A stretch of 23,515 bases of DNA, from positions 1 through 23,515 of the IMG/VR virus record IMGVR_UViG_3300047392_000026; one strand, written 5' to 3'. The stretch comes from a virus. Position numbers and translations under genes: made by a program. Below, one piece after another: positions 14,869-19,498 of the stretch. Within the stretch, counting starts at the first letter, position 1, and the number at the start of each line of letters is the position of its first letter. The notes below the pieces were generated by a model. It was not told the DNA's origin. It made no database searches and worked only from the letters and a program-made list of their open reading frames with translations.

Positions 14869-14901
14869 AGAAAGCCCCAATGTCCGACCACGGGGCTTTC
14901 T
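14869..14901 (-). terminator. Terminator between replication and packaging modules
   Basis: A perfect 10-bp inverted repeat (AGAAAGCCCC / GGGGCTTTCT) has a 13-nt loop. On the minus strand the stem ends GGGGCTTTC and is followed by TTCTGAGC. The GC-rich base and T-rich 3' side are typical of a factor-independent terminator. It separates the 95-aa gene and replication genes from the packaging operon. Confidence 0.7.
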
Positions 14902-15029
14902 AATGGGAGGAGGAAATTAATGCCGAAACAAAAAACTCCCATGTGTGCAGAGGAAAATGGCCTAATAAAAACCTCTGCGTAACAACAACGGTCCTAAGGT
15001 ATTATTTCTGTTATTGTTGCATTTATTTA
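14902..15029. other. Hairpin-rich intergenic segment with a 23S rRNA helix-69-like sequence
   Basis: No minus-strand gene fits here. Two stems can form: GGGAG/CTCCC (14905-14909 with 14936-14940, long loop) and GCAGAGG/CCTCTGC (14947-14953 with 14972-14978). Directly after, positions 14978-15001 on the plus strand match the universally conserved 23S rRNA H69-H70 region (E. coli about 1908-1931, which contains the I-CeuI homing site) at 22 of 24 bases, with 15 contiguous from AACGG to AGGTA. The phage transcribes the minus strand, so its RNA would be complementary to rRNA. A 20-codon plus-strand frame (14920-14982) with a strong ribosome site (GGAGGA) also exists; I do not trust it as a gene without expression data. 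Confidence 0.6.
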
Positions 15030-15453: not shown

Positions 15454-17169
15454 TTACAGCTGAATCAGCATGTCATCCTTTGTTAAATCTTTGCCTGGAA
15501 TAGCAGTGCTAACACGATCCCAGGGAAATGCTCTTGCAGTTGTGCCACGCACGGAATCAGTTTTAAACACATAACTTTGGTGTGTGCTTAAAATATGCCC
15601 TTGCATTTCTAAATCAACTCGTTGTTGTGCGGCTTCTTTGTAAGCAACTTTATTGCGGCTCAGATAATCTTTCCATTGTTTCTTAATAGTTTTAGGATTT
15701 GGCTTTTTACCATCATTTACAATGCCTACAATATCTTGTAGCAATTTAACGCTAATGATACCACAGCTTTCAAATACCGGAAGCAATTGATCAAACACCG
15801 TATCCATTGTACTCTTCTGATCTTCAAAGCGTTGCTTGTAATCTTCGCCGTGTAATGGGCGTAGAATATCTAATGTTATAATATTGTGCTTTTTAATCAT
15901 TGCGCCCATCCAGGCTGCAACTTCAGATCTATTTTTAACAAGTTGTGCAATTTCATTAGCACGAACGCCTGCTTGTTCCTTTGTGCAATTTTCACGAGCC
16001 ATAATTTCATCAATCATTACTATATTAGTATTAATTACACTATAGCGTCTGTCTTCACCACCGGTACCAGTACCGCTTAACTTAAACACACCATGGCTGT
16101 TATTGCTTAATGCTAATAAACTGTAGTTTCTATCTGCTGTATAAGCATCGACACCCTTGCGCTCAACCCGCTGTTCTTCACCGCCAGTTGCTTGCTTCAT
16201 TTTGCCTGCTGGTAGTTCTTTTTCAGTTGGCTCATCAAAGAGCAAGATTGTAGCAAGTTCCCAAGATGCGTTAAAGCCATCATTAAGTTCTTTTGCTGCC
16301 GCAGGGACAATACAGTTAGGAGTAAAAATAGTCCTACAAAGTTCTGCATAGCGTCCTTTACCGTTACCACCAGGACTACCGCCTAAGTCTAAGTTAGGTG
16401 TATTTGCAACACGCTCGGGGAACAAATATTTGTAAGCAGGCCATTGTTCTAAATGGGCAATATTTTCTGCTTTACCACCACCAATGCAATACATTAGCAA
16501 ATCAAAATCAGGATTGTATGGCTCATTGCTCCAGCCTTCAACATATGATTCATCTCTAAATTCTGGCTCAAGCCAATAACTAGCAATTACTTGTGCCTTA
16601 TTATAAACTTTATCTGATGCCCATTTACTATACAAGAAACTTGCGGTCTCTTGATAGTGCGTTTTATTTTTAACAATAAACAACTTCTGAATATTGTTAT
16701 TAGCATCAAACAAATATTGTCCAATCATTTTACTAAAGGCGCTTGTTGCTCTCGCCCCATCAAAACTATGAAACACAGGATTGATGACACCTTGCTTATT
16801 ATCGCCCATGTCCATGCAATATGTGTATTTGTTGTTTTCCACATTATAACTAATATGGTATTTGTTGATAGCCTCTAAGATTGCCGGCTGTACTTCTTTC
16901 CATTTAAAATTATTAGATGCTTCTTGCGCTTCATCTAATTCAGTTTTGTCATTTTTGATATCATCAATCTTGTCTTGACATTGACGCACAATATATTTTT
17001 GTGCTTTAACTGCATCCTCAATATCTTGTAGTTCTTGTCCTTCTAAGACACTGATACCACAGGAATACGCACGTTCTAGTTCTTCTAGTTTATCTTGTTC
17101 TTCCCCTAATTCGCCGCGCAATTCTTTTAAGCGGGCATCTAATTGTTGTTGTGTTGTTTTCTTGGCCAT
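15454..17169 (-). CDS. SF3/D5-like replicative helicase
   Basis: 571 aa. Residues 1-85 are a charged coiled coil (QQQLDARLKELRGELGEEQDKLEELE). The ATPase part shows Walker A GSPGGNGKG at 264-272, Walker B ILLFDEP at 308-314, a sensor-like ALSNN at 353-357 and GGEDRRYSV at 370-378 with the likely arginine finger. This order and the spacing of about 40 residues between A and B fit the primase-associated SF3/D5 helicases (DUF5906-like). The final ~100 residues (NDGKKPNPKTIKKQWKDYLSRNKVAYKEA) look like a winged-helix DNA-binding domain. It unwinds phage DNA together with the primase encoded just upstream (gap 1 nt). Usually primase and this helicase are fused; here they are two genes. Confidence 0.85.
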   Translation of the reverse strand: MAKKTTQQQLDARLKELRGELGEEQDKLEELERAYSCGISVLEGQELQDIEDAVKAQKYIVRQCQDKIDDIKNDKTELDEAQEASNNFKWKEVQPAILEAINKYHISYNVENNKYTYCMDMGDNKQGVINPVFHSFDGARATSAFSKMIGQYLFDANNNIQKLFIVKNKTHYQETASFLYSKWASDKVYNKAQVIASYWLEPEFRDESYVEGWSNEPYNPDFDLLMYCIGGGKAENIAHLEQWPAYKYLFPERVANTPNLDLGGSPGGNGKGRYAELCRTIFTPNCIVPAAAKELNDGFNASWELATILLFDEPTEKELPAGKMKQATGGEEQRVERKGVDAYTADRNYSLLALSNNSHGVFKLSGTGTGGEDRRYSVINTNIVMIDEIMARENCTKEQAGVRANEIAQLVKNRSEVAAWMGAMIKKHNIITLDILRPLHGEDYKQRFEDQKSTMDTVFDQLLPVFESCGIISVKLLQDIVGIVNDGKKPNPKTIKKQWKDYLSRNKVAYKEAAQQRVDLEMQGHILSTHQSYVFKTDSVRGTTARAFPWDRVSTAIPGKDLTKDDMLIQL

Positions 17170-17170
17170 T

Positions 17171-18091
17171 TTATTTTAAGTTATATTTTTGTTTAAGACG
17201 CTTCGTAGTGTCTATAAATTGTGTGACAGGCGTTGCTTCTCGTAAGCAGTCCTTACCATGTCGTTCTCGTAGCAAGTGTATAACACTTCCCATTGTAATT
17301 GGCTTGCTAACTTGCCCGCCGTGTGTCCAAACAGTTGCCGCATCACCTGCTGTTTTTTGGCTCATCATGCCTGTAGTAACGTATTGGAAGTCTGTTAAAC
17401 TAAAGCCGCCTGCTTTTAAACCCCAGCCAACATTACGCCAAATTGTGTAGTTGCCCACATAAGTTTGCTTCAGCAAGTCAAGTATGCGTTGCTTTTGTGC
17501 GTCGTCAAGTTGTATAGCAGGACCTGTGTATTGCGTCATTGCTTCTGCACTTGCACGGTCTTGTTCTTCTACAATAGCAACTAACTGTTCAACAATATCA
17601 GTTGTTAGTAATCTGTTGGTGCGTTCGCATAGGACACAATCAGGCGTGCCATAAAACAAACGTGTAGGATCTTTACATGCTTCGTCAGCCGCTCCAAACA
17701 CTTTAAGCAAGCCACGATTTATTTTGCGTAGGCGGCCCGCATCTGTTTCTGCTACTTCTAGCGCAAAGCAAATGCGGAACTTGTGTAGTTCGGCAGTAAA
17801 GCTGGGTGTTGCATAAAAGCCCGCACCGCATGCATTGTAAAATGCATTGTCTAGTAGTTCAGGAATAGTCATGCCACTATCAATATCAACCATAAGCAAT
17901 TGCCTACTTGCAAAGTTCGCTTCTTTACGATTATCATTTAGTAGTTCGGCACTTGTAGCATAGCCATCCTGAGTAATCAACGAAAATGCATCTTCCCAAC
18001 TAACATCGATGTTGATCCAATTATGGCCCAAATCAACAAATGCATTCTTTGCTGGCTTGCCTATAATATTTGGGTTTATGCTCAACTTCAT
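17171..18091 (-). CDS. Archaeo-eukaryotic-type primase (prim-pol)
   Basis: 306 aa. The catalytic acidic pair is LLMVDIDSG (Asp 69, Asp 71). The second motif is YATPSFTAELHKFRICFAL with His 103 (the sxH-type nucleotide-binding motif), and the third is KDPTRLFYGTP (141-150). These are the motifs of AEP primases of phage and plasmid type. The C-terminal part (~195-285, QRILDLLKQTYVGNYTIWRNVGWGLKAGGFS...AATVWTHGG...MGSVIHLL) resembles a PriCT domain, which links primases to SF3 helicases. It would lay primers, possibly extend them, at the replication fork. It overlaps the small upstream gene by 4 nt (ATGA) and the helicase gene follows after 1 nt. Confidence 0.85.
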   Translation of the reverse strand: MKLSINPNIIGKPAKNAFVDLGHNWINIDVSWEDAFSLITQDGYATSAELLNDNRKEANFASRQLLMVDIDSGMTIPELLDNAFYNACGAGFYATPSFTAELHKFRICFALEVAETDAGRLRKINRGLLKVFGAADEACKDPTRLFYGTPDCVLCERTNRLLTTDIVEQLVAIVEEQDRASAEAMTQYTGPAIQLDDAQKQRILDLLKQTYVGNYTIWRNVGWGLKAGGFSLTDFQYVTTGMMSQKTAGDAATVWTHGGQVSKPITMGSVIHLLRERHGKDCLREATPVTQFIDTTKRLKQKYNLK

Positions 18092-18276
18092 GCTAATTCT
18101 TGCTGATATTTAATTACACGCAAAACTTCATTTAAACGCGGCACCATTTCAGGGTTCGCGCCAATTGCTTGTTTAGCTAACCGACGCACAACAATCTCTT
18201 GTCTTGTTAATGATTTATCTTGCACTACGGTTTGTAATTGCTCAATGGCATAATCATAAAATTCTTGTTTATTCAT
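18088..18276 (-). CDS. Small helical protein ahead of the primase gene
   Basis: 62 aa from the ATG at 18276 (MNKQEFYDYAIEQLQTVVQDKSLTRQEIVVRRLAKQAIGANPEMVPRLNEVLRVIKYQQELA). A TTG two codons upstream is possible but less likely because GGAG lies 8-9 nt before this ATG. The chain is predicted to be nearly all helix, basic in the middle (VVRRLAKQ), without cysteines or TM segments. It could bind nucleic acid or the primase, with which it is translationally coupled (stop/start overlap at 18088-18091). I do not recognise a family. Confidence 0.65.
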   Translation of the reverse strand: MNKQEFYDYAIEQLQTVVQDKSLTRQEIVVRRLAKQAIGANPEMVPRLNEVLRVIKYQQELA

Positions 18277-18300
18277 CTTCAAATCTCCAAAGGTTGGTAA

Positions 18301-18498
18301 TTACACTACTCACTCTGAGTAATGTGACTGTTATGGTCCTGGGAGATTGTCATGTCTCCTTCTTCTCGTAGGACCGACTAGACTGTCTCTAGACGGGAGT
18401 AAAGCATCTTAACTCTTTACCCACCTGAAAAGGATGGGCTGTCCATCCAGTGCAGGTTAAGATTTTTCTGAGAAGAAGTGTTAGCGTTGCACTAACAC
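18301..18498 (-). ncRNA. Putative structured RNA with six helices and a pseudoknot
   Basis: The ~200-nt gap between the GIY-YIG gene and the next gene is dense in base pairing. Helices (plus coordinates): 18304-18311 with 18317-18324 (8 bp, one G-U); 18335-18340 with 18370-18375 enclosing 18342-18346 with 18355-18359; 18378-18382 with 18388-18392; 18399-18404 with 18415-18420; 18432-18437 with 18443-18448, bracketed by 18423-18427 with 18453-18457; 18478-18484 with 18492-18498. The 10-nt loop of the 18399-18420 hairpin contains 18406-18413, which is perfectly complementary to 18456-18463, so a pseudoknot (or alternative fold) is possible. I find no match to known riboswitch, tRNA or group I intron cores. 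The RNA strand is assumed to be minus like all genes. Confidence 0.6.
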
Positions 18499-18500
18499 TA

Positions 18501-19292
18501 TTATTTAGCAAGTTCTTGCAGTTGTGTTAACCTATCTAAGGTCATTTGGAGCAAGTCGGGGTTTGAATTTTCCTTTTGGTATGTCAAGTACAAGCCTTGC
18601 ATGATTTCAATTTGTTCTTCAATTGGAAAACTTTCAGATAATTTAATAGTTTCTTTAGCAATACCCTGTAAACGATCAATGAAATTGTTTTCAGCATCTT
18701 CACGATCCTTTTTGCGTCTGCGTGCTTGCTTCTTTTCAAATTTAATAGCCCAGGCATGTGCTTCTTCTGCAGAGCCTTTGATGCCGGTCATAATCTTTGC
18801 AAGTTGTGCAATCTGTTCTGGAGTCCTGCGATCACTATGCAATTCTTCTTCTGCGGCTAACGTTTCCTTATATTCACGATAACTGCGGATGCCACGCTCG
18901 CGCATATCCTCTGCTACTGCTAATCGTTCTGTCATCCATGAAGCATTGCCTTTTTTCTCATTGGTAAGTTCATAACCATCAACAAGCAGAGCCATCATAT
19001 GCTCATCTTCTAGTGCTTCTGGACCTTCTGCTCCATAATCTACCACAGGCACCAACGCCCATGGAATATTATTTGCATCCAGCACATTAGCAATAAATTG
19101 GTATTTGGTTTCGCTATCTGCTGTAGCAGTTTTAGCACCATAAATGTGCTCTGCCCAGCGGCGTTCCCAGTCTGTAGTCTCACCTACATAAAACGGAATA
19201 TCTACACCCTCATGACTAAATCTTAGTTCATAAATGCATCCAGGTTCAAACCCTACGAGGTTGCCTGCTGTATCAAAAATCTTCTTGGCCAT
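18501..19292 (-). CDS. GIY-YIG family nuclease, possible homing endonuclease
   Basis: 263 aa. Residues 17-52 read GCIYELRF...IPFYVGETTDWERRWAEHIYG: the GIY motif appears as C-I-Y, the YIG motif as Y-V-G, with conserved Arg 44/45 and His 49. The catalytic Glu is probably in EALEDEHMMALL (~95-99), and ELTNEKKGN (108-116) is the usual Asn-containing end of the domain. After residue ~120 a charged helical/coiled-coil part follows (QARRRKKDREDAENNFIDRLQ), probably DNA binding. GIY-YIG nucleases cut DNA at one active site; in phages they act as mobile homing enzymes or in replication and exclusion. It has its own likely promoter and is bordered by a structured RNA, unlike the tightly packed neighbours, so it may be a mobile insertion. 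Confidence 0.8.
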   Translation of the reverse strand: MAKKIFDTAGNLVGFEPGCIYELRFSHEGVDIPFYVGETTDWERRWAEHIYGAKTATADSETKYQFIANVLDANNIPWALVPVVDYGAEGPEALEDEHMMALLVDGYELTNEKKGNASWMTERLAVAEDMRERGIRSYREYKETLAAEEELHSDRRTPEQIAQLAKIMTGIKGSAEEAHAWAIKFEKKQARRRKKDREDAENNFIDRLQGIAKETIKLSESFPIEEQIEIMQGLYLTYQKENSNPDLLQMTLDRLTQLQELAK

Positions 19293-19312
19293 TATTTTTC
19301 CTTTACTATTGT

Positions 19313-19341
19313 ATTTTACTTACCTTAAAGACAAAAAGCAA
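19313..19341 (-). promoter_or_regulatory. Sigma70-like promoter for the GIY-YIG gene
   Basis: On the minus strand TTGCTT (19336-19341) and TAAAAT (19313-19318) are separated by exactly 17 bp. The -10 matches the consensus in 5 of 6 bases and the -35 in 3 of 6. The -10 ends about 20 nt before the ATG, and AAAGGA lies between. Suggests early transcription by host polymerase. Confidence 0.45.
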
Positions 19342-19379
19342 GCGCAATATAGCCTAAAAATTGCAGATTTTACAAAAGG

Positions 19380-19415
19380 CAACACCTCCGGCGTTTCACA
19401 ACGTGAGAGGTGCTG
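19380..19415 (-). terminator. Terminator-like hairpin before the GIY-YIG gene
   Basis: CACCTC (19383-19388) pairs with GAGGTG (19407-19412), extended by two more pairs after one mismatch. Inside, CGTT/AACG forms a second short stem with a TCAC loop (GTGA on the minus strand). On the minus strand it is followed by CCTTTTGT, a modest T tract. It would separate the small upstream genes from the replication block. The rest of the 19293-19498 gap is AT-rich, with an AATAAATA box near 19448-19455. Confidence 0.5.
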
Positions 19416-19498
19416 TGTGCTATTAAAAAAGTATGTCACACTCTGTGCAACACAAATATTTATTAATACTTTTATATAGATAATACCAAAGTAAATTT

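Follow-up and report, generated by a model that had tools for sequence, protein, structure and literature searches.

A pseudoknotted RNA at the head of a tailed-phage primase operon, probably a translational leader

What is encoded by a gap of about 220 bases between a nuclease gene and the primase operon of a tailed phage? The stretch of DNA analysed here (the window; 23,515 nucleotides, positions 1 to 23,515 of IMG/VR virus record IMGVR_UViG_3300047392_000026) is part of a tailed-phage genome, with every annotated gene on the minus strand. The gap extends from the stop of a GIY-YIG open reading frame (ORF; 18501) to where a small ORF, overlapping the primase gene, begins. An initial annotation, made from the letters alone, had placed an unrecognised structured RNA with a pseudoknot at 18301-18498 and suggested a nuclease-associated RNA, a relic of a self-splicing element, a cis-regulator of primase expression, or a small phage RNA. 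The genes around the gap are as follows.

18501 to 19292, minus strand: GIY-YIG nuclease, an optional neighbour (PF01541, E 5e-4, just below the cut-off)
18088 to 18276, minus strand: first operon ORF in the window (ATG at 18276-18274, 8 nt spacing from GGAG; listed from TTG at 18282)
17171 to 18091, minus strand: primase (weak PriCT-2 match, PF08707, E 5e-4, just below the cut-off)
15454 to 17169, minus strand: candidate replication helicase/ATPase, DUF5906 (PF19263, E 3.5e-12)

The window primase (17171-18091, minus strand) had no tblastn match among 50,697 INPHARED phage records. Relatives of the window terminase, about 42-44% identical, occur in Pelagibacter phage HTVC026P and phage DSL-LC06.

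Copies of the RNA

Eleven copies of the RNA were collected, namely that of the window and 10 further ones in IMG/VR phage contigs, some of which have almost no helix sequence in common; they amount to about four independent clades, and every record comes from a metagenome and could be a fragment. L001 and L002 were found via a protein search with the GIY-YIG gene (the L001 RNA is 98.6% identical to the window copy), and L017, L019, L020, and L022 with a DNA pattern built on the conserved core of the window, L001, and L002 RNAs; pattern matches L023-L028 were rejected as chance. A covariance model (R1), built from five sequences of this group (window, L001, L002, L017, L019, L020, and L022), matched near primase genes in L005 (84 bits, E 8e-22), L008 (34 bits, E 9e-8), and L040 (32 bits, E 2e-7). 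With a second model (R2), a far relative was found in G007 (L012/L057; 20.7 bits, E 6e-4 for the record). L012, whose membership was assigned from this 20.7-bit match and manual inspection, has a 10-bp P3, a d pseudoknot of 4 bp only, and P6, P7, P8, e, and f all built from new sequence (elements as listed below).

Nothing credible for the RNA was found in Rfam, riboswitch families included, at the gathering threshold or at E≤10, and RNA blastn against INPHARED phages and PLSDB plasmids gave no real match. A pattern scan of GTDB genomes returned a single match, which lies inside a gene and was taken as chance. Models R1-R3 had no match in other primase-bearing records, Pelagibacter phage HTVC026P, or phage DSL-LC06, and by model search the RNA was absent from more distant primase loci; one match (E 0.9) in a 5.1-Mb genome was regarded as chance. 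No phage RNA of this kind was found to be already described in the literature searched.

Fold and covariation

Folding energies lay far below those of dinucleotide shuffles on both strands, with z −4.6 (18283-18500) and −5.5 (18360-18500) on the minus strand and −3.2 on the plus strand, and no shuffle was as low; the suggested excess of pairing over chance is thus borne out. The RNA is a minus-strand product, because the genes are all on that strand and G.U outnumbers A.C (12 to 4) among the non-Watson-Crick cells of the helices. A structured RNA was therefore correctly recognised by the initial annotation, and its limits are better drawn at about 18508-18283 on the minus strand. Its elements are listed in 5'-to-3' order, with the per-helix counts of pairs changed on both sides (double changes).

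18283 to 18508, minus strand: whole conserved structured RNA, probable 5' leader of the primase operon (10 homologues and covariation)
18498 to 18508, minus strand: conserved 5' end, CTAAATAA; overlaps the GIY-YIG ORF stop codon; also in L008 and L019, without that gene
18478 to 18498, minus strand: 5' hairpin H1; double changes in 4/4 pairs
18470 to 18478, minus strand: helix P3, 5' strand; P3 double changes in 8/9 pairs, none broken
18457 to 18463, minus strand: pseudoknot strand d (partner, loop of hairpin f); double changes in 5/7 pairs
18424 to 18456, minus strand: hairpin e; double changes in 6/6 inner-stem pairs
18397 to 18422, minus strand: hairpin f (18415-18422 with 18397-18404); double changes in 7/7 pairs
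18406 to 18412, minus strand: pseudoknot strand d', within the loop of hairpin f; covaries with d
18374 to 18396, minus strand: hairpin P6; double changes in 4/5 inner pairs
18370 to 18375, minus strand: P7, 5' strand GGTCCT, interlocking with P3; its GG is common to P6; mostly invariant
18360 to 18367, minus strand: helix P3, 3' strand; pairs with 18470-18478
18342 to 18359, minus strand: hairpin P8; double changes in 4/5 pairs; 3' strand also complementary to the Shine-Dalgarno region
18338 to 18348, minus strand: proposed repressing strand (AGG of P7 together with P8 3' strand); complements the start region of each copy
18335 to 18340, minus strand: P7, 3' strand AGGACC (hand alignment)
18303 to 18325, minus strand: hairpin P9, missing from L008 and L040; double changes in 6/6 compared pairs
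18282 to 18293, minus strand: CCTTTGGAGATT, Shine-Dalgarno region, with which the repressing strand would pair (sequence comparison)

The order of elements is thus H1, P3 5' strand, an A-rich joiner, d, e, f (with d' in its loop), P6, and P7 5' strand, followed in the 3' half by P3 3' strand, P8, P7 3' strand, P9, and the Shine-Dalgarno region. Covariation among homologues, the check named by the initial annotation, is present and strong. In alignment A4 (ten copies, L012 left out), 90.9% of cells were paired, and double changes with pairing kept were found in 32/55 proposed pairs; neither value was reached by any of 500 shuffles, and sliding the partners by 1-3 columns lowered them to 41-50% and 4-8 pairs. 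The A4 pair count is an undercount, since L019 is misaligned in strand d, several copies in hairpin e, and L008 and L040 at their 3' ends; the per-helix counts were taken from a hand alignment, made by eye and including L012, in which these misalignments are corrected.

The fold of about 200 nt, with hairpins H1, e, f, P6, P8, and P9 and two interlocks (P3/P7 and d with the loop of f), is very well supported by these comparative sequence data. The noted 8-nt complementarity (18406-18413 with 18456-18463; ATCTTAAC and GTTAAGAT) is exact and covaries as pseudoknot d/d'; the second interlock, P3/P7/P8, had been missed. P7 is the least supported element, because its double changes (2/5 pairs in the hand alignment) occur in L012 only; it is mostly GGnCC/GGnCC with a variable middle pair, and GGTCC:GGACC is replaced by GAAC:GTTC in L012. 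A nested double pseudoknot like that of HDV was rejected, as the 2-3 nt between P7 5' strand and P3 3' strand leave no room for the P3 hairpin of HDV.

Position at the primase operon and a proposed switch

The RNA heads a PriCT-2-type primase operon in 11/11 copies, with the L002 contig ending within a small ORF before the primase. It lies directly before the primase in L005, L008, L017, L020, and L022, and is separated from it by one or two small ORFs in the window, L001, L012, L019, and L040, so that the first ORF behind it (primase or preceding small ORF) varies by phage. A helicase gene, DUF5906 or VapE-like, lies behind the primase; the two ATPases are exchanged between records (VapE-like in L005, L017, and L020; DUF5906 in the window and L008), with the primase and leader RNA retained. 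At the 3' end of the RNA, ACCAACCTNNGGA is conserved in eight copies and contains the Shine-Dalgarno site. In L019, with no close preceding gene, a promoter-like TTGATT-17-TATAAT immediately precedes the CTAAATAA end. No terminator-like site was found on the RNA strand of the window. Transcription attenuation by H1 and the T-rich P3 strand was rejected; this arrangement is terminator-like in L019, and no such site was found in the RNA sense in the window, L005, L008, or L012.

Among the suggested roles, that of a cis-regulator of primase expression is favoured, as the RNA stands at the head of the primase operon throughout and includes the Shine-Dalgarno region of the next gene; cis-regulation is likely, judged from the sequences. 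A trans-acting or stand-alone phage non-coding RNA (e.g., a host-factor decoy or an anti-defence RNA), transcribed immediately before the primase genes and perhaps released by processing of their mRNA, would account for the large, compact, and strongly conserved structure, the promoter-like site of L019, and the variable first downstream ORF. We consider it unlikely, given the lack of a terminator-like site on the RNA strand of the window, conservation that continues into the following gene's Shine-Dalgarno site, and the same operon head in every copy.

This unclassified structured RNA probably serves the phage primase operon as its 5' leader and probably controls translation of the operon. 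A translational switch is proposed because every copy has complementarity between its P8 3' strand and the Shine-Dalgarno region, and because the energies of the two states are nearly balanced. In the on state, P3, P7, and P8 would be formed, leaving the Shine-Dalgarno region free and the operon translated; in the off state, P8 would open, and its 3' strand, together with AGG of P7, would pair with CCTNNGGAG(A) and hide the Shine-Dalgarno site. The two states would be mutually exclusive. Candidates for the trigger are a protein of the operon (the primase, for instance), some other factor from phage or host, or a small molecule; following the example of T4 gene 32, our first guess is a replication protein that regulates its own synthesis. 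We tentatively go further, to a reading that is possible rather than probable, that this is a new RNA class, a ligand- or protein-sensing double interlocked pseudoknot of group I-like order, in which a P8/Shine-Dalgarno strand swap controls translation of a DNA-replication operon.

By computation, every copy shows complementarity between its repressing strand and its start region. The pairing reads AATCTCC.AGG with CCT..GGAGATT in the window and GATTTCC.AGG with CCT..GGAAATT in L005, and in L008 there are eight consecutive pairs (TCTTTTCC with GGAAAAGA). P8 5' strand, P8 3' strand, and the Shine-Dalgarno region vary together (GGAGA/TCTCC/GGAGA, GGAAA/TTTCC/GGAAA, and GGGAA/TTCCC/GGAAAAG). Specificity was assessed by comparing the RNA's own start, as partner of the repressing strand, with the other Shine-Dalgarno-bearing starts of the same record. 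Its own start was the best partner in the window (0/27 others as good), L005 (0/30), L019 (0/32), and L012 (0/9), and tied or second in L008 and L040 (1/43 others as good, each); it was less special in L002 (3/23), L022 (2/14), and L020 (2/7), which counts against the switch. Strands that pair with a GG-rich P8 strand will also tend to pair with Shine-Dalgarno sites anyway. In seven members, the open and closed states differed by no more than about 3 kcal/mol (energies of nested pairs only), and the structure is computationally predicted to be able to occlude the ribosome-binding site, as a translational operator would.

Two other roles at the same site were weighed. A 5' hairpin near the transcript start, followed by a compact pseudoknotted body, is a layout able to stabilise mRNA, and H1 lies near the likely transcript start with such a body behind it; a leader that keeps the replication mRNA from decaying at its 5' end, or that brings in ribosomes, with no switching, nonetheless appears improbable, as it leaves the complementarity between the P8 strand and the start region in all clades unexplained. 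An RNA linked to replication, or an origin element (a primer or a landing site for the primase), would suit a location adjoining the primase gene. The G.U bias indicates an RNA on the coding strand, GC skew is unchanged at the site, and the link to the start region would again go unexplained, which makes an origin element very improbable.

Comparison with known systems and relation to the GIY-YIG gene

As a translational leader, the RNA would work most like the gene 32 leader pseudoknot of phage T4 or a translational riboswitch, to judge by analogy. Like the gene 32 operator of T4 and RB69, it is a leader pseudoknot of a phage replication gene, located 5' of the Shine-Dalgarno site. The T4 pseudoknot is about 28 nt long, whereas the present RNA is about 200 nt long and has two interlocking pseudoknots and several further hairpins; in T4, gp32 binds and spreads over the start region, whereas an exchange between RNA pairings is proposed here. 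The layouts also agree in an optional GIY-YIG gene that abuts the leader. In T4, segG, a GIY-YIG homing nuclease gene, runs into the gene 32 pseudoknot sequence and is missing in RB69 (PMC535899); here, the GIY-YIG stop codon overlaps the 5' end of the RNA. With translational riboswitches that have pseudoknotted ligand domains, the RNA shares a compact conserved domain followed by an exclusive pairing able to hide the Shine-Dalgarno site; it matches no Rfam riboswitch family.

The GIY-YIG gene precedes the RNA in 7/11 copies (window, L001, L002, L005, L017, L020, and L022), in two dissimilar versions with 30% identity. No GIY-YIG match was found in the RNA-bearing records G016, G004, G007, and G015 (27.9-32.8 kb, possibly fragments), which between them carry L008, L012, L019, and L040, and in view of these four records the suggestion of a nuclease-associated RNA is not supported. 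The omega RNA/HEARO and the reRNA of IS607 TnpB are likewise structured RNAs beside a nuclease gene, as some copies are here; unlike these guide RNAs, the present RNA adjoins a GIY-YIG gene, does not consistently co-occur with it, and has no HEARO match. CTAAATAA makes up the GIY-YIG stop region of some copies, and L008 and L019 keep it without that gene. From these sequences, the frame of the nuclease therefore seems to have extended over a leader that was there first, which is also what was proposed for T4 segG. By analogy, the recurrence of the segG/gene 32 layout suggests that free-standing homing nucleases may preferentially settle at leaders that regulate replication genes. A weak GIY-YIG match (G012:C1:10820-11005, the L035 record) also lies near a primase in a phage without the RNA.

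The same neighbour raises the case for a group I-like self-splicing element or relic tied to the nuclease. The strand order P3, P7, P3', P8, P7', P9 is that of the group I core (Rfam Intron_gpI), and an interlocked P3-P7-P8 core is present, with strong covariation in P3 and P8 and weak covariation in P7. A group I intron was rejected, as the RNA fails three defining tests despite this core-like order. Helix f, with double changes in all of its pairs, flanks the would-be P4 3' strand, so that P6 does not directly follow it, and group I introns have no such helix; the RNA also has the extra pseudoknot d/f and a P8-P7 joiner of 1-2 nt in most copies. At E≤10, neither the window copy nor L005, L008, or L019 gave an Intron_gpI covariance match, and no gene is split, the RNA lying between complete ORFs. 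With the GIY-YIG-free records added, the chance of even a relic, as first suggested, is next to negligible.

The RNA is best filed as a new family of the phage-leader kind. To our knowledge, few phage mRNA leaders with elaborate folds have been described, and this one is distinctive in its strong covariation, second interlock, location at a replication operon, and testable exchange of two pairings; such a leader would offer a direct handle on the timing of DNA replication in small uncultivated phages.

Two further gaps of the window were noted. That at 19293-19498 (minus strand), upstream of the GIY-YIG ORF, is non-coding (folding z −1.9) and has a hairpin (CAGCACCUC/GAGGUGUUG) with CCUUUUG behind it, which together resemble a terminator by eye; the non-coding gap at 14885-15029 (minus strand) also has hairpins (folding z −2.0).
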